Source: Ulota crispa
Lineage: Eukaryota; Streptophyta; Bryopsida; Orthotrichales; Orthotrichaceae
DNA length: 64,000 bases
NCBI GenBank assembly: GCA_963920765.1
Contig: OY987243.1
Location: forward strand, 7,998,001 to 8,062,000
Direction of reading: 5' to 3'
Numbering within the stretch: position 1 is the stretch's first letter; every line of letters begins with the position of its first letter. Below are positions 4,012 to 40,533 of this stretch, piece by piece. Position numbers and translations under genes: made by a program. The notes beneath the pieces were generated by a model. That model worked only from the letters and a program-made list of their open reading frames with translations. It was not told where the DNA came from and made no database searches.

Positions 4012-5885
4012 ATGGGAAGCTCGCAACAAGTCTTGGCGTTCGTTCTAGTGGCAGCCATGCTGCATTCGTGCTCAGCTTTTCGGCCATTGAGCTCATTCTG
4101 GCAAGCCCAACTGCCAGAGGAGAGTGTTCCTGTTGCAGCCGAGAGCCATGACGATGCTGCTGATAACAGTACCCTCACTGAGATCAGGTACTTGCTCTCG
4201 AGATTGTTTAATAGTTTTCGCTATAACTGCTTTGCAAATCTCACGGATGGAAAAGTGCAACTTAGAACGGCAATGGATTAGCATTAGACCTATGTTGTAA
4301 TAATGCACTGAAACACCGTTTAGTGATGTAGTTACAGCGACATTTTTACCCGCATTTTTATGTCGTTTCAATGCATTGTATAACGATGTGGCGAGAAATA
4401 CTACGAGGCCATCATAAGCATTTGCTATCCCTTGTGCTTAGTGTTGAACCTAATAGTACTGGAATGGTATTGGAAATTCGATAGTGGCAGCTCGGGTGTT
4501 CAGACGCGACGCGAGTTGGGAGGATGCGGCACTGGCAACCCAGTGGACGACTGCTGGCGCTGCGATAGCAACTGGGAGAGTAATCGCCAAGGGCTGGCGG
4601 ATTGCGCCATAGGGTTTGGCAAGAACGCCATTGGCGGGAAGAACGGGCGTATCTACGTCGTGACGGACCCCAGCGACGACGACGTCGTGGACCCCGCTCC
4701 AGGAACGCTGCGATGGGGCGTCATCCAGCAGGAGCCTCTGTGGATCGTGTTCAGAGGCAACATGAACATCAAGCTCAAGCGCGAGCTCATCATGAACAGC
4801 TTCAAGACTATCGACGGGCGGGGTAACAACGTGCACATCGCGGGCGGTGCGTGCCTCACGATGCAGTTCGTCAACAATATAATCATCCACGGCGTGCACA
4901 TCCACGACTGCAAGGCTGCTGGCCCGGGCGACGTGCGGAGCACGCCCGACCATGCGGGCCACCGAGGCAAGACCGATGGCGATGGCGTCAACGTGTTCGG
5001 CTCTCGCGACATCTGGATTGATCATTGCTACTTCTCCAGCTGCGCTGATGGGCTTGTGGATGTTATTGAAGGCTCCAACAGTGTGACCATCTCGAACAAC
5101 TACTTCGAGAATCACGACAAGGTGATGCTTTTGGGCGCTCACGACAGTGACTCCGAGGACCGGAACATGCACGTCACGGTGGCGTTCAACCACTTCGGTC
5201 AAAACCTCGTTGAGCGCATGCCCAGGTACTCAAAATGGGGCGGTGCTGGGGGCTTGATTTAGCTAAAATTGTTTATTATGTATTCATCTCCTTGTTTGGA
5301 CCAACGGGATTGAATTCATGGCTATGGCGTCTGTTACATGCAGATGTCGGAACGGCGTGTTTCACGTTGTTAACAACAACTACGAGGGGTGGGGCATGTA
5401 CGCCATTGGAGGCAGTGCTAATCCTGTCATCAACAGCGAAGGCAATCGCTTCACTGCTCCCAATTCAGCTAACATGAAGGAGGTTTAGTATAGTCTCTCA
5501 CCTTTCATGCAGAGCCCTCAATTCTTCTTTCCGATATTGCAATAGCTGTTGTATCCAAGGTAACAGTATATACTAAGTTTAGTAGTTCAAAAATCCTTGT
5601 GGTGTGTTTGATGTGATTAGTACCGTATCTCTGAAGCCTACTTCTTCCATTGTGCTTGAGATGTATTGCATGGGATTCTTTTGTGGCCCTCAACAGGTGA
5701 CGAAGCGGCTTGACGACGGAGGAGACAATTGGAGATCATCGGGCGACATATTTGTGAACGGCGCATTCTTCACTGCATCTGGGGCTTTGAAGTCCAATTT
5801 CTACGCCAAGGCCACCAGCGTCAGCGCTCGCCCGGCGGCCATGGTACCCTCCATGACGAACGACGCAGGGCCGCTTCGTCTCTGA
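4012..5885 (+). CDS. Pectate lyase, polysaccharide lyase family 1 (secreted)
   Basis: Four exons: 4012-4187, 4491-5225, 5344-5482 and 5697-5885. All introns are GT..AG and phases match, giving 412 residues. Residues 1-22 form a hydrophobic signal peptide, so the enzyme should act in the cell wall, where the family cleaves de-esterified homogalacturonan by Ca2+-dependent beta-elimination. Visible family motifs are the Cys-rich start [13 protein letters not shown] (about residue 71), DGDGVNVFG (221), WIDHC (234), [10 protein letters not shown] (245), the [14 protein letters not shown] stretch (to about 273) and ERMPR (300-304) with the expected catalytic arginine region. Aspartates in the DGD and DGLVDV segments are the usual Ca2+ site. 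Length is normal for plant members and no key residue is missing. A 250-codon open frame on the opposite strand is only a shadow. The gene converges on the pectin methylesterase gene at 10.2-15.3 kb. Confidence 0.95.
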
Positions 5886-10168: not shown

Positions 10169-13100
10169 TCAAGGTGTGACCCATTCGTCTCCATCGACGA
10201 ATGAAAGACTAAGAAACGGACGTGCTTCGGTATCTGTGAGCTCGCGTGACCATGGAACGCGGCCAGTTCGTCTTGCTCCTGGGCCATAGCATTTGTATTG
10301 CCCAAATACCACCGTTCTGCACATCGGTTTTGGCAACAGACCACCATGTTTGCTCTCAGCTTTAGTTACCAAAGTATTCAAACAAGCAGCCAGATCTCTT
10401 TAATGTCACAGCACCTAAAATGCACATGATTGCTTTGTTACATGGTGCTTTGTCACATTGTGAAAATTAGAGAGCGTTGCAAGGGAAAAGCTCTGAAATT
10501 GGAGAATTCCTTGAATGGGGTTGCATGAGTGATTTAAAATCTGTTTCAGTGATGTCAAAAATACACCGTTTTTGGCTTTAGCAAACCACTTCTAGTTTTT
10601 TTGAAAGGTTCGCAATTTTTTTTCTCAGCGACTAGTTTTTTTTATGCTGAAGGACGGTTGAGAAGAGGTAAAGGTTTTGTAAACAACGTCAGGGCTTGAA
10701 AACGTATAGCAAATTGCAAGAATATCGACTGTTGTTTCAATGTTGTTTCAATGTTGTCAAAATGTTTTTTTCACCTTATTTCCATGAGAAAAGGGCCTAC
10801 AAAACCAACATTAAGGTATAGGGAATAGACAATATATAGGTTCCATTTTGAAACTTATTGAATTTTAGAGATATTATGGCCTTGGAAATTTTCTTTTGCA
10901 CTATGCTCTAGTCAGTATATTTTATACAATGCAATGATGTACAGTTTATAGTCTAGGGGATCTAATATTTTACCCTAAATAGTATGCAATTTGACCAAAG
11001 TAATTTCAAAAGATTTAAACATTATTAAATCCTTTAGCAATACAATTCTATGGGGCCCTGTTTTTAACGTAGCAAAGCTATGGGATATGGAACTGCAAAT
11101 ACAACCACAAACCGCATATGCAGCCGCAAATCATATATTCCCATTTTATTTTGCAAACCTTGCAAAAGCAACATCTGAGTAGTTGTTAAATTGGTAGCAA
11201 TCTTGTAACCACGTTAAAAGCTGTATTCTTTAAAGACAATGGGTATCTTCTTTAGTGTTAAAAGCAACATCTGTGAAGTTACCGAACCCTCAAAACCCTA
11301 TAGTGCAAGACACCTTGAATCAACAAACTTTTTGACAAAAATGTCAAATAGCTGCCAACTTTGAATTTCAAATTTTTTTACAAGAGATAGTTTCAATTTT
11401 TTTTTTGTAACTTTTATCCTAATACATTCTTGCTTATAGTTACAATGAGTTTCAACTATGAACAGCTCACATAATTGTTAGAACTTTGTTGCTTTATGCT
11501 GTCTTGCACCGTAGAAGTGTAGTCGTATACAACCTCTTCTGCCATAGCAGAGGATCATGGTGATATTTAACCGTTAAGTACCAAAATGACCCTCTTTTTT
11601 CGCTCTTACATCTACACAAGTTAAACAAAATTATTCTAGAGGCTTTCTATGGAATCAAAATGAAAAAAACAGAAAAATATTGTATTCTAGAAATTGGGGT
11701 AAGACTAAGAACTGAGGATCATGAGGGCTTCAAGGAGCGTGATATGAAAGAGGATTTGGTGAGTATATAGAGTTGTGGGCTGCTTACTGATTTCGCTGAG
11801 GATCATTCCAGTTGGACCAGCCCACAGGAAGGATGACGTTGTCCATGTAGGTGAAGGCGTACACCACGCGGGCATAGGACCCCCAAGCTCGTCCCAAGTA
11901 GAGCAGCCCTGACCCGGTGATCCTACAGTTCAAAAAGGAAAAGCCCGTGTCTTCCGAACGCTTCTCTCGCTTGTGCGCGGCCACAGAGCCATATGTCGTT
12001 TGCGGTATGGCGTGCAGGTTACAACTCTGGTTCAAAACAAAAAGTATTGTCAACACATCACATACAACTTTCTAATCTAGCATGCATAACGACGAAGGTA
12101 TAATTTAATCCTACACTAAGACTCCATGTGGTGGATCCTGGGATTGAGAAATATTTACAAGAAAAAATTTGAAACTTATTCCGTTTTGTCTATCCTACAA
12201 TGATATACTCCAAGAATGCTTTAATCAAAAATCGCTTTTCTTATAACGTCTTTGGCTTATAAAGCAGGAGTAAGCCCAGTTACAGCCTACAGGACAGCAT
12301 CATCCAATACCTTAACACAAGAAACTGGTGTTCTGGATACTCAGATGTACTCACAATTATTGATAATGACAAATGCAGCAAGGTAGTGCTAGACTGCTAG
12401 TACCTTTGAAACACTTGATAGTTGCAATAAAATCATAATATATGATCTTTGATTCGAAATTTTAGTATCCATCTTCCCAAGTGGCCTAGTTCGGTAGATT
12501 GGAGCAATAATCCAAAAGTTGTATTGTGGAATTTTGAAAATGGTTTGAAAGTAGTGATTGTATTTCTTGCCGATTTCTTGCAATCATGGTTTTGAGGAAT
12601 ACAGGGCGGATATATACCTCGTAGAGGGAGAGGCCATCGCCGAAGACGAAGTCAATGGAGCCCTCGATGAGGCAGTCTTTGAAGTAGTGCCGGCCCGAGT
12701 GGTCATACACTGTATCCTGGCCGCTCACAAACCGGCACCCATAGAACGCCGCCGTGTCTCCCGTGATCCGGAGCGCCACTGCTTGCTTCCCTACTGCTCC
12801 TGCTGCCGCCACGACTGCCGTATTCTGCACACACGATCACACAATCCACTCCTTGGTCAGTCAGACATGCCCGGTAGCGCGACCAGCTGATCACGAGCTC
12901 ACTCGCTACGCTTTTGATTGTCTTATTTTCGTTTAAAGCATAGAATGTCATCCACTATGGCGAGGTGCCGAGGACATGGAATGTGCATAATGCCTGGCAT
13001 GGGCTTCCCACCGAATCGCATTACCACGGTCCCCTCCTGATTGGGGAACCTCGTAATCAACTCACACTTGATATAAATCTACTTTGACTTGCCATAGCAG

Positions 13101-35165: not shown

Positions 35166-37123
35166 ATGACATCTATGGCGACCTTGGCCAGCGCCCCAGT
35201 TTCTTCCCCAGTTAGACTGCCCACGCAATGTCTCTCGCCACGCAGGTGCTCTCATCACCTCTGCTTTCAGAACAGTCGAATTGCTGCTATTATAGGCGAC
35301 TTACGGTGCATGGCACTTATAACCAACAACTCCCAATTCAAGTGGCTAGCCTAAGGCTTTGTCAAAAAAAAATGTTATCAAAATTTGAGACCACCAAGAT
35401 GAAGCTTAAGATTTGTCTCGCTTGGTGATGAAATTACTTTTGATGATGAAATTACTTTTGAGCTAATGGGTATATGTGTTGTGCTTTAGTATTTCTTGCT
35501 GGAGCAATAGTTGTTGGTTTTAAGTGTCATGCACTATAGTTCTTTCGTCTTTGTGGCTACAAAAACCGGGGGCCCTGTTGACGTTGCAGACCTCGTTGGT
35601 TCTCCTAGGTTTGCCGTACTTGGAGCTGGATTTGCTGGCGTTTCCGTGGCATGGCACTTGCTTCAGGTGTGCACTTGTAACGTCTTCTAAATGCTGGACT
35701 CTGAGGCTCCAAATTAGGGTTCACAGTTTTCTTAGCGCTTTTGAGAAGATCGCATAGGGACTTCCTTTTGAACAATGGTGATGTAAAAACTGGCATTATA
35801 TCGTTCACGATATGATCAATGAAGTTGGTCATTGTCAAACCTTGAATCCTTGGAAACCATGGATCATCTCGTTCCGGTTTTGCGGTGGTATACTGACCAA
35901 GGAAGATGCAATGCGAATTGCAGCACACATCCAGTGCAGGACCCGTCTCCGTGGACTTATTCGATGGGACTGGAATCGGCGGAGGTGCGTCGGGCGTGTC
36001 AGGCGGCTTACTGCACCCTTACACTCCGAAAGGAAAGCTTCTTTGGAAGGGGAACGAAGGTTGGCAAGCAGCACTGGCTTTGTTATCCGCTGCTGAAGAT
36101 GCTGATGTGCACACGGAGCCCATAGCATGGCGGAGGGGCATCTTGCGGCCCCTGGTAGCGGAGAAGCACATCAAGGACGCCAGAAAGCTGGTAAAAGGGA
36201 ATGGCATTCGATGCTTGGAGCGGCATGTGGCGCAGGCGATGGTCAATGGTCTCGAACTTCCTGAATTAGGGTTAGGGTTGTACATTCCAGAAGGCATCAA
36301 CCTCCACCCTCGTCGGTATCTCGACGCTCTTTGGCTAGCTTGCACAAACTTCGCATATACCGCCTGTGCGGGAACACGGGCGACTCTTGTGAACCAGCAC
36401 GTGAGCTCACTTAGCGAGCTTGCACGCGAAGGATACGAAGCTGTCGTGGTGTGCACGGGATCCAAGGCGGTTCTGCTGCCAGAGCTTGCAGGAAAGCTGC
36501 CTCTTGCAATGTGTCGTGGCGTTGTGGCGCACTTGGAGCTGCCGGATGATTTCGAAGAGTATGATTCTCAGGCACCGAATTTGCTTTCCCAGACTTGGCT
36601 TGCTGTTCAAGAAGCACGAAGGATGGTGTTGGGAGCCACCAAGGATTGGAATTCAGGGCCTGAATGTGGAGGTGTGTCTGCGGAGGAGGAATCCTTGGTG
36701 CAAGATGATCTTCGGCAAAGAGCAGCTCAGTTCTATCCTCTTATCAAGCAGTGGGACTTGAAAAGCTTACAGGCTGGCGTGCGTGCCATGCCACCACGGA
36801 CCTCCTTGGGGGCGTTGCCTCTAGCAGGTCTGATTTAATTTTCTGATTTTTTCGTTTCTGGGAGATTATGCTCACAAGCATTGTGTTCTGGACTTCACTA
36901 CCTTTTATGTATTCCAGTTTTCTGAGTAATTGTGTTATTGCCAGGCTGTGTGAACAAGCTGGTGCAGCCTCTGCAGTCTGAGACCCAGTGGTGGCTGATC
37001 GGTGGGCTTGGGTCGAGAGGGCTGATCTATCATGGCTGGCTCGGTGAACGTGTTGCTGCTGCCGTGATAGCCAGAGATGCTTCGCTCGTTCCTCAAGAGC
37101 TTCACCAGTTTTGTGCAGTATAA
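35166..37123 (+). CDS. FAD-dependent oxidoreductase, DAO family
   Basis: Four exons: 35166-35245, 35540-35666, 35924-36827 and 36945-37123, in phase, 429 residues. The dinucleotide-binding start is clear: FAVLGAGFAGVSVAWHLL at 51-68, with the G-x-G-x-x-G at 55-60. It is followed by the IGGGASGVSGGLLHPYTPKG block that is strongly conserved in this plant family, and near the C-terminus by WWLIGGLGSRGLIYHGWLGE, the second FAD contact. Related proteins include the oxidase half of bacterial MnmC; the substrate of the plant members is not known to me. The Ser/Pro/Arg-rich first ~45 residues look like an organelle transit peptide, probably plastid. Exon 1 is the least certain part: translation could instead start at the ATG at 35529, inside the predicted intron, giving MHYSSFV. 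The gene is convergent with the Josephin gene, about 0.9 kb away. Confidence 0.88.
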
Positions 37124-38041: not shown

Positions 38042-40213
38042 TTACCCAAACAACCAAAATTTCCAGTATTCAACATCTGTCCATGACGGAGGCGGTTTCT
38101 CAGCCAGCATGATGGGGTTCACAGGACGTGGTTTCCGGACTGCCACTATCAAACCGCCGTCGTCAACAACCTTGTGGAGGAACATGTGCACACTGTGAGC
38201 GCCATCACAGAAGAGCAGAGGGGTGGCCTTGGTGCTGTCGAAGTCGTACCAGAGGCCGTGGTAGTGGCGTACTGCAATCCAGAGCCGTCTCTTCAGGTGC
38301 AAAAGGAAGCCCAGCAGGCGGTCCCCACGCAAGTCCAGGAGGTCAATTTCCCTGTCGAGGCGTTCCACGCTGTCAATGAAGTACACAGTCCTCCCTCGCG
38401 ATGCAGCCATTGCCTGTATCACTTCGGCATTGAAGATTTCTGTATCGTGATCATGCTTGTTGAAACTGGAGTCCGTTGTAACGTGCTTCTCTGCTACGTA
38501 GTCCTTTTCCTCTTTCGTAATCCTATTCTTCCCCTGCATCAATCAAAACTCTTCTGAGTACATGTACAAAAAACATGTTTCAACATTGTTTGGCATGGTA
38601 CTCCAATTGTTAGGCTGACTGCAGTAGCGTTTCTGAGATTTGCCATGAATAAGTTTTTAAGGTCAGATCGAGGCTTTTACATGTTTACACACTTTTGCAG
38701 ACTACTTGCCTTCAAAGTAACCGTACATTCGTAGATATTTTTCTCATCTTTTTGAGAATCACCATTATTCGTCTCTAGAGTTGTAGAGTGAATAATGAGT
38801 TTCTTCGTATGTATCAATCATCTTTACTTACTGGTTCGCTTTAAAACTTCCAACTTACAGGCTCAGTTCCTCAAAGAGCATGTCAGATTGACTTACCCTA
38901 GAAATGTACCTCATAAGGTTCCGTCATTTTCCTCTCAGCCACATAAGATCGACTCAGAAAATTTTGTATTTTCAGTTCGGTTGCAACTGCTTCGCCAGTC
39001 ATGATAACTGTTACTAGCTGTATTTGCGGAATGGCTTCTTTCTCGTAGAGGCAGCTTTCATGCGAACCTCACAACACAGGAATGCAAATTCGCAAAACGA
39101 TTTCCTATGAAAAAATCATAGATGTTCCAAGAATGCTTTCAAGTTACTACATTGTATACACCATATACTATAGAACAAATAACAATTACGAGATGCCGCA
39201 GGTATAATTTCCTCCAATTTCGGGTGATGCTTTTCACCACCCCTGAAACGGAAAAGTAAGCGTAAAACCTCCCAGGAAGAATAACTGCGGGCCAAATAGT
39301 TTTACCGTTTCATAGCATGTGGTGTATTTAGGGTTACCAAAACTGCAGTGACTCAACGATGGGAGAAAACTTCAATGCCAGGAGAGGAAATTAAATGGAG
39401 CAGGGGATATTCTCGGAGCCTGACATTGACGAGGCATTGCAAGAGAGAGAGGATAGATCAGGGCTCTTTAATTTACGTTTTTTCATAAATTAACAAATTA
39501 GCCTAATTTATGCACATCATGAAAGTCAATTTGTGTATTGTCATAAATTAACAAGCTTGTTTTTTATATTTGCATACTTGATATCATATTAACTGCAACA
39601 AAGCATTAAATTGCTTGCATTGTCACACCCCTCAAGTGAGAGGTTAGTTAGTAATTTACAATGCTCAACTTTTGAAAGTTTAAGAATAAGGAAGTCAAAT
39701 TCAACTCTGACCATGCTAAAGAATATGGTGACCTTGCCGCCACAAAAATTGCACAATGGGCTTAAATTGTGCACGTCGTCAAGGGTTAATTTGTACAATA
39801 ATTTTTAGAAAACGTAAATTAAAGACGCCTGGAATAGACAGAACCTAGACCTGCATGAGATTGTTGAGAGCATGCATGAGGTCCAACGGACTGGTCTGCT
39901 TCTCATGGAACAAGCGCGGACAGACGTGCGGGTGAGAGGAAGCGAGTCTCCTCTCGGCAGGTTCAGGTTCCGCCTCATCATCGTCGTCACTGGCGTCACC
40001 GCCGCCGCGGCTGCCCGCATGCTCGAGGTGCTGTAATCCTCCGTCGCCGTCGCGATACTTGCGCACCGTGCCGTCGCCGACCAAGCAGAGACGACAACTG
40101 GCCGCTGCCTCGCGTCGCTGGCTAACTGCAAAGACGAGCAGCAGGACCGCCACGGCGGTGCCGAAGAGCACGCACTTCAAGCTCGAGGTTGGTCTGTAGG
40201 GACAATCGAGCAT
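38042..40213 (-). CDS. Membrane-anchored Josephin-domain protein lacking catalytic residues
   Basis: Two exons on the minus strand, 40213-39851 and 38533-38042, joined by a phase-0 GT..AG intron of 1317 bp; 284 residues. Residues 14-30 are a hydrophobic anchor, followed by an acidic DDDDEAEPEP linker. The Josephin fold is recognisable: LFHEKQ ... HALNNLMQ (102-121, family: HERQ..CAVHALNNLLQ), the ITKEE segment (126-130), the DLRGDRLLGFLLHL segment and RRLWIAVR ... LWYDFDS (203-221, family: RRHWVALR ... YYNLDS). Active Josephins are Cys proteases that cut ubiquitin, using Cys, His and Asn/Asp. Here the Cys position is D111, the His position L205 and the Asn position D218. Both frames are open, and the splice sites and core motifs are preserved, so this looks like a maintained pseudoenzyme rather than a decayed gene. 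Catalysis is not expected; ubiquitin binding is possible. Confidence 0.8.
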
Positions 40214-40533
40214 GAGCGCATGGTAATGGTGCGAGGGGGGAGGGCGATCCTGCAGCAGTGGTGCGGCGCTTCCGTAACGCCATTGCTGGCCATGTGGGCT
40301 TCAAACCCTCGCAATCCTCGTTAGTGCATGGTTCATCCATGTCCTCCCTTGGTGTGTAAGCTTCACGTACGATCGCTATGTCGGCATGGACATCATTATG
40401 GTATACATACGGTACGAGTACAGTATGAATGTGGAATATATTATGTGTATACGATGTAGACACCTTGCTAAAATAGATCCACTCCTCAATCAGGCATTCA
40501 GGACCTTCTCATACAGTTGTTTCCTCTCCAATG

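Follow-up and report, generated by a model that had tools for sequence, protein, structure and literature searches.

A gene for a predicted membrane-anchored pseudo-deubiquitinase of the Josephin family in the moss Ulota crispa

The stretch of the Ulota crispa genome analysed here (64,000 nucleotides; assembly GCA_963920765.1, contig OY987243.1, positions 7,998,001 to 8,062,000; hereafter the window, to which all coordinates refer) contained on its minus strand a Josephin gene composed of two exons (40213-39851 plus 38533-38042) and coding for a 284-aa protein (hereafter the window protein). Also recognized in the window were a pectate lyase frame (4384-5259, plus strand), a pectinesterase exon (12489-12836, minus strand), and an FAD-dependent oxidoreductase frame (35897-36838, plus strand; Pfam DAO, 76.8 bits), the last being convergent with the Josephin gene. 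The Josephin gene displayed the following features:

39851..40213, minus strand: exon 1 (codons 1-121, 363 nt, open, ending CAG/GT), carrying the start Met, an N-terminal hydrophobic helix, an acidic linker, and the start of the Josephin domain with the site once occupied by the catalytic Cys
40124..40174, minus strand: hydrophobic segment CVLFGTAVAVLLLVFAV (residues 14-30), a predicted signal-anchor helix with a Kyte-Doolittle 19-mer value of 2.55
39896..39898, minus strand: codon 106, CAG (Gln), the oxyanion-hole Gln kept (ATXN3 Q9)
39881..39883, minus strand: codon 111, GAC (Asp), which the alignments place at the catalytic Cys of ATXN3 (C14) and JOSD2 (C24)
38534..39850, minus strand: intron of 1317 nt, GT-AG, phase 0, matching the JOSL intron of this genome in position and phase
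38042..38533, minus strand: exon 2 (codons 122-284 plus stop, 163 aa), carrying the remaining Josephin domain and a C-terminal tail of about 30 residues
38282..38284, minus strand: codon 205, CTC (Leu), where ATXN3 (H119) and JOSD2 (H125) have the catalytic His; the gatekeeper W206, which is kept, comes next
38237..38239, minus strand: codon 220, GAC (Asp), at the true third-triad position, the same residue as JOSD2 Asp-140 and D151 of the JOSL protein of this genome

The gene is a real two-exon gene of the minus strand, in agreement with a preliminary description of the locus that had spoken of two clean exons with a Josephin domain: the joined product matched Pfam Josephin (PF02099) with 49.6 bits (cut-off 26) across profile positions 2-157 of 157, and the GT-AG intron lay in phase 0. 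The frame of exon 2 alone, begun three codons upstream, gave 42.5 bits across profile positions 31-157, and thus homology, beside the splice signals, backed the joining of the two exons. The frame of exon 1 was open upstream as far as an in-frame TGA at 40301 and contained no earlier Met; M1 was the first Met in frame and M113 the next, so that any product containing the HEKQ motif has to begin at M1, barring an unseen 5' exon. The intron harbored a 373-bp element (39459-39831) that had CAGG/CCTG ends, carried terminal inverted repeats of 30 bp (83%), and was flanked by imperfect 8-bp repeats (6/8), and one end of the element was located about 20 nt from the splice donor; at least 40 further places in the genome matched it over about 290 bp or more, and the best match reached 94% over 300 bp (40 of 259 candidates scored in both cases). 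By appearance, this element would be a hAT-like MITE.

The Josephin family search of the 274.8-Mb genome gave four matches in three genes: (i) an ATXN3-like gene (C2, 25.07 Mb; two exon matches) with the intact triad C31/H136/N151, (ii) a JOSL-like gene (C1, 26.78 Mb; JOSL below) with the intact triad C22/H136/D151, and (iii) the window gene. A search for an active Josephin paralog, which had been proposed as a check, thus returned two genes that would be active by their intact triads. The nearest kin of the window protein were plant JOSL (Arabidopsis At2g29640) and human JOSD1/JOSD2 (Pfam PF02099; MEROPS C86), with the likeness being measured on the JOSL of this genome and human JOSD2, not on the Arabidopsis sequence. 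The shared properties were the Josephin domain, the third-triad Asp, the oxyanion Gln, and the gatekeeper Trp, plus the intron position in the case of JOSL; unlike JOSL and JOSD2, the window protein had no catalytic Cys, no catalytic His, no insertion before the His strand, and a changed ubiquitin groove block, while it possessed an N-terminal anchor, an acidic linker, and the C-terminal tail. With ataxin-3/ATXN3L, it shared the Josephin domain and (with ATXN3) a short beta2-beta3 loop, but it carried no UIMs and had Asp rather than Asn at the third position; moreover, it had no intron in common with the ATXN3-like gene of the genome.

Identity of the window protein was 35% (54/156) to JOSL, 33% (46/140) to human JOSD2, 31% (46/150) to human ataxin-3, and 24% (36/153) to the ATXN3-like protein of the genome, compared with 44% (67/152) between JOSL and JOSD2, and the window protein scored 75.4 bits with a JOSD-type profile versus 27.7 bits with an ATXN3-type one. 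The exon junctions LMQ/GKN (window gene) and LLQ/GEN (JOSL) were both in phase 0, and the ATXN3-like gene had no intron there. In a five-taxon tree, the window protein was placed next to JOSL with 58% ultrafast bootstrap and a branch of 1.54 versus 0.32 for JOSL. Because intron position and phase are held in common with JOSL, the window gene is most likely a fast-diverged JOSL paralog as judged from these comparisons; this kinship was not clean, since identity to ataxin-3 was about that to JOSD2, the insertion found before the His strand of JOSD2 (and in part of JOSL) was missing, and the bootstrap value was low. A large deletion of the ubiquitin-clamping arm was considered for the large gap relative to JOSL, and it was dropped because human JOSD2 has an arm of equal length (hand count on the alignment). 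Queried against its own genome, exon 1 matched only itself (1/1 match), with no further copy, and exon 2 matched itself and JOSL (2/2 matches); no confirmed relative was found in the scanned contig collections, which hold prokaryotes and viruses, so that absence there says little, and the NCBIfam search gave nothing relevant (one chance-level match). Outside the Josephin family, 13 exon matches to the ARF family (PF06507) were grouped into seven loci of the genome; ARF sets of few members are typical of seedless plants, and the count thus points to a seedless plant as the likely source. At1g07300 and At2g29640 of Arabidopsis are presumably recent duplicates of one another, and if so, the poplar and Arabidopsis gene lists, as given in the source passages, would contain no third lineage of the window-gene kind. 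These lists comprise four MJD genes in poplar, one of them of only 112 aa, and three in Arabidopsis (PMC8281628).

The catalytic positions were assigned by aligning the Josephin domain with the JOSL-like and ATXN3-like proteins of the genome, human JOSD2 (6PGV), and human ataxin-3 (PDB), and a second placement was made by alignment to a profile of those four references with the window protein left out. The known triads are C14/H119/N134 in ataxin-3, where Q9 has been proposed for the oxyanion role (PMC4428445), and Cys-24/His-125/Asp-140 in JOSD2 (PMC7337049), and the aromatic gatekeeper Trp touches Gly-75 of ubiquitin (PMC7391069). Both placements matched D111 with the catalytic Cys (ATXN3 C14, JOSD2 Cys-24) and L205 with the catalytic His (ATXN3 H119, JOSD2 His-125), which bears out two of the three replacements that had been claimed. 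The third was not upheld: the third triad residue lies 15 positions past the His and is D220 in the window protein, Asp being normal there in the Josephin-1/2 lineage as in JOSD2 (PMC7337049), while D218, which had been taken for the lost residue, aligned with ATXN3 N132 and replaced a neighbouring Asn that is common to 4/4 reference Josephins and is no member of the triad. Compared to an active Josephin enzyme, the window protein hence had D111 in place of the Cys, L205 in place of the His, and an accepted residue (Asn/Asp) at the third position, and a loss of all three catalytic residues was ruled out.

Substitutes for the lost residues were ruled out by alignment: the closest preceding Cys, C98, lies upstream of the HEKQ motif, and H211 and H213 lie past the strand starting at L205. 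A sequencing error behind D111 is unlikely because its GAC codon is at least two changes from any Cys codon; the L205 codon CTC is one change from CAC. In JOSD1, mutation of either C36 or H139 singly abolishes activity on Ub-Thr-TAMRA (PMC7848729), and cleavage by a protein that has lost both residues is therefore very unlikely. The window protein is almost certainly catalytically dead as far as its aligned residues indicate, and we infer that it would be unable to cleave ubiquitin; counting against the dead-enzyme reading, USP53 and USP54 were annotated as pseudoenzymes and turned out to be active (PMC12037411). An AlphaFold model of exon 2 alone, made without an alignment, had a pLDDT of 38.4, too low to inform on the fold.

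The hydrophobic segment at residues 14-30 was the sole strongly hydrophobic stretch of the window protein (2.55 versus a best 19-mer value of 1.09 from residue 41 on), and its 17 residues are predicted to be long enough to span a membrane in a single pass. The window has 95 frames that begin with ATG and reach at least 60 aa, and no other of them contained a 19-mer of at least 2.2 in its first 45 residues (control run at thresholds 2.2 and 2.5). The charges flanking the segment do not decide topology. JOSL as modelled started 13 residues ahead of its HERQ motif and had no hydrophobic segment, and thus the anchor and the acidic linker were missing from the nearest paralog. The window protein is probably inserted in a membrane, and residues 14-30, which had been proposed as a membrane tether, would be its anchor.

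The preliminary description had further suggested a ubiquitin-binding adaptor, and this is not favoured by the residues expected to contact ubiquitin. In ATXN3L, the C-terminus of ubiquitin is threaded between the F74 and E118 backbones, and S76, I77, Q78, and S81 of ataxin-3 are part of ubiquitin site 1 (PMC4428445). ATXN3 G73-Q78 aligned with the GNYDVN block of JOSD2 (66-71) and JOSL, beside the ubiquitin groove; the window protein was changed at 6/6 positions of this block, with the Gly that is invariant in 4/4 references becoming E153. Given that 27/63 columns common to JOSL and JOSD2 were kept overall, a loss of all six neighbours by chance would be a roughly 3% event, which is suggestive, not conclusive, and the complete change of the block weakens the adaptor idea. 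JOSD2 Gln-78, the side chain of which contacts ubiquitin, was replaced by A165, and the JOSD2 aromatic pair 86/87, of which Trp-86 contacts ubiquitin via its backbone (PMC7337049), aligned with F173 and I174; ataxin-3 site 2 (Tyr-27, Phe-28, and Trp-87) corresponded to R125, I126, and R167, though JOSD2 itself is also described as having no site 2 in the passage concerned (PMC7337049). Taken at the level of aligned residues, this suggests that the canonical ways of holding ubiquitin are poorly preserved, which makes a ubiquitin-binding adaptor less likely than a scaffold for another partner. JOSD2 is active yet holds ubiquitin loosely (PMC7337049), and so the window protein might still bind ubiquitin weakly.

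The best working analogy that suggests itself is human OTULINL/FAM105A, in which Asp139 stands in place of the Cys and a membrane-localisation motif is predicted; it has about 33% identity to OTULIN and is reported in the same source passages as unable to interact with ubiquitin (PMC7862380). Like OTULINL, the window protein would be a pseudo-deubiquitinase with Asp for the catalytic Cys, a predicted N-terminal membrane motif, and about one third identity to an active paralog; unlike the window protein, OTULINL belongs to the OTU family and keeps His350 at the catalytic His position. The resemblance is one of working principle, not of homology.

The sequence shows the family, both losses, the kept Asp/Gln/Trp, JOSL as the nearest kin, the hydrophobic stretch, and a frame that is open although the gene has diverged strongly, and the combination of a DUB fold with lost catalytic residues is that of a pseudo-deubiquitinase. 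With the cutting residues lost and an anchor probable, the window protein probably acts by binding partners, not as an enzyme, and since this OTULINL-like combination would recur here in a DUB family unrelated to that of OTULINL, the reading chosen was that of a non-catalytic binding domain displayed at a membrane (probability roughly 60%). A plant JOSL (Josephin-1/2-type) gene would have been duplicated; in the duplicate, D111 would have replaced the nucleophile Cys and L205 the general-base His, and an N-terminal membrane anchor plus an acidic linker would have been acquired, with the Josephin domain being retained. This domain would be displayed on a membrane surface, where it may act, like OTULINL, as a protein-binding scaffold or receptor independent of the C-terminal tail of ubiquitin; by analogy, the odds that it is a scaffold without canonical ubiquitin-tail binding are put at about even. 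From the earlier pseudo-deubiquitinase interpretation, a putatively dead and probably membrane-tethered Josephin domain is retained, but the number of lost residues is lowered and the adaptor role is set aside.

Other readings overlap in part with a membrane-displayed binding domain, and their probabilities and that of the main reading do not sum to 1. The main rival, which we regard as rather unlikely, would be an adaptor or decoy in which the dead domain holds ubiquitin or ubiquitinated cargo at the membrane and shields it from active DUBs. A DUB without its Cys commonly becomes a trap, the window protein kept the gatekeeper W206, the oxyanion Q106, and D220, and 33 residues separated the Gln after helix 1 from the groove, as in human JOSD2 (44 in JOSL; hand count); but, beside the fully changed GNYDVN block (whose Gly, now E153, is kept in the ATXN3 type too), A165 in place of JOSD2 Gln-78, and the replaced ataxin-3 site 2 (which JOSD2 also does without), the Pfam search at E up to 1 found no UIM or other ubiquitin-binding domain. 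A young or partly decayed pseudogene, in which catalysis was lost as the gene stopped mattering and the frame stayed open by luck, is a clearly minor prospect: the long branch, the disappearance of Cys and His along with several core residues, and the putative MITE of the intron with its terminus close to the splice donor would all fit it, but the 284-codon frame was open, the splice sites were GT-AG, and 13/23 columns identical in the four active references were kept (a count without one further column, which stems from the expression tag in the ATXN3 construct). The 10 lost invariant columns included the Cys, the His, and the ubiquitin-groove Gly, several others being conservative changes, and both Josephin parts showed a drop in GC at the second codon position (0.19 and 0.34). 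In simulations of neutral drift (2000 runs each), a stop-free frame was left in only 8.65% of runs at 0.1 substitutions/site and in 0.35% at 0.3, percentages that count stops before any frameshift. The rarity of a stop-free frame argues against a long-decayed pseudogene and leaves room for a recent loss, which keeps the frame open anyway, the argument presuming that much of the long branch postdates the loss of catalysis. On these sequence properties, the gene is very probably working, not decaying.

The N-terminal stretch could instead be a signal peptide that is cleaved off, leaving a secreted or luminal Josephin domain with a role unrelated to cytosolic ubiquitin. A short n-region containing a single Arg and a single Lys, the 17-residue hydrophobic core, an A-A-A ahead of S39 as a possible cleavage site, and the loss of ubiquitin-groove residues would agree with this; R33-R34-E35, however, directly followed the core, and eight residues separated the core from the end of the AAA, both of which are atypical for signal-peptidase cleavage, and with the flanking charges undecided as to topology we consider this outcome as improbable as that of a pseudogene. 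By far the least credible reading is an altered rather than a dead enzyme, with D111 and D220 forming a new active site (a carboxylate pair or a metal site) for other chemistry: the two Asp and the conserved H114 could be close together, as far as the alignment shows, provided that the Josephin fold is preserved, but the general base is Leu, the substrate groove is changed, and no such case was found in the source passages.

A membrane-displayed pseudo-Josephin would be new for its family, as far as the sources extend. The claim that such a protein has not been described in plants held in a search of open-access full text on inactive/pseudo and plant/moss Josephins, which gave no dead Josephin among the matches listed, and the passage concerned in a 2024 review, apparently on human DUBs, gives the UCH and MJD (Josephin) families as having no pseudoenzyme (PMC10919355). 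That DUB paralogs can lose catalysis is well known, for example from the OTUD4 homologues CG3251 and Otu (PMC4654579). Plant Josephins have barely been studied, with the function of the three Arabidopsis members described as still to be elucidated in a 2014 review (PMC3928566). If true, retention of a dead Josephin would bring the Josephin (MJD) family into the range of pseudo-deubiquitinases and, together with OTULINL, make two independent cases of Cys to Asp plus a membrane anchor, which would give a testable idea of the role of dead DUB folds at membranes; the interest would be greater if orthologs prove conserved. A bolder and rather doubtful proposal is that a membrane-anchored pseudo-Josephin lineage is conserved in seedless plants, arrived convergently at the design of OTULINL (Asp for Cys, an N-terminal anchor, and loss of the ubiquitin groove), and serves as membrane scaffolds, maybe at membrane contact sites; these would be the first pseudoenzymes of the Machado-Joseph family.

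Minor observations were made at both ends of the coding region. An upstream out-of-frame ATG (ACCATGC, within 40205-40225) started 8 nt 5' of the start codon, and the short reading frame from it overlapped the Josephin start codon, so that Josephin translation may be lowered. The C-terminal tail (38045-38134) ended in the aromatic stretch WTDVEYWKFWLFG, which was not present in the JOSL of this genome and might be a second motif for touching membranes or binding proteins.
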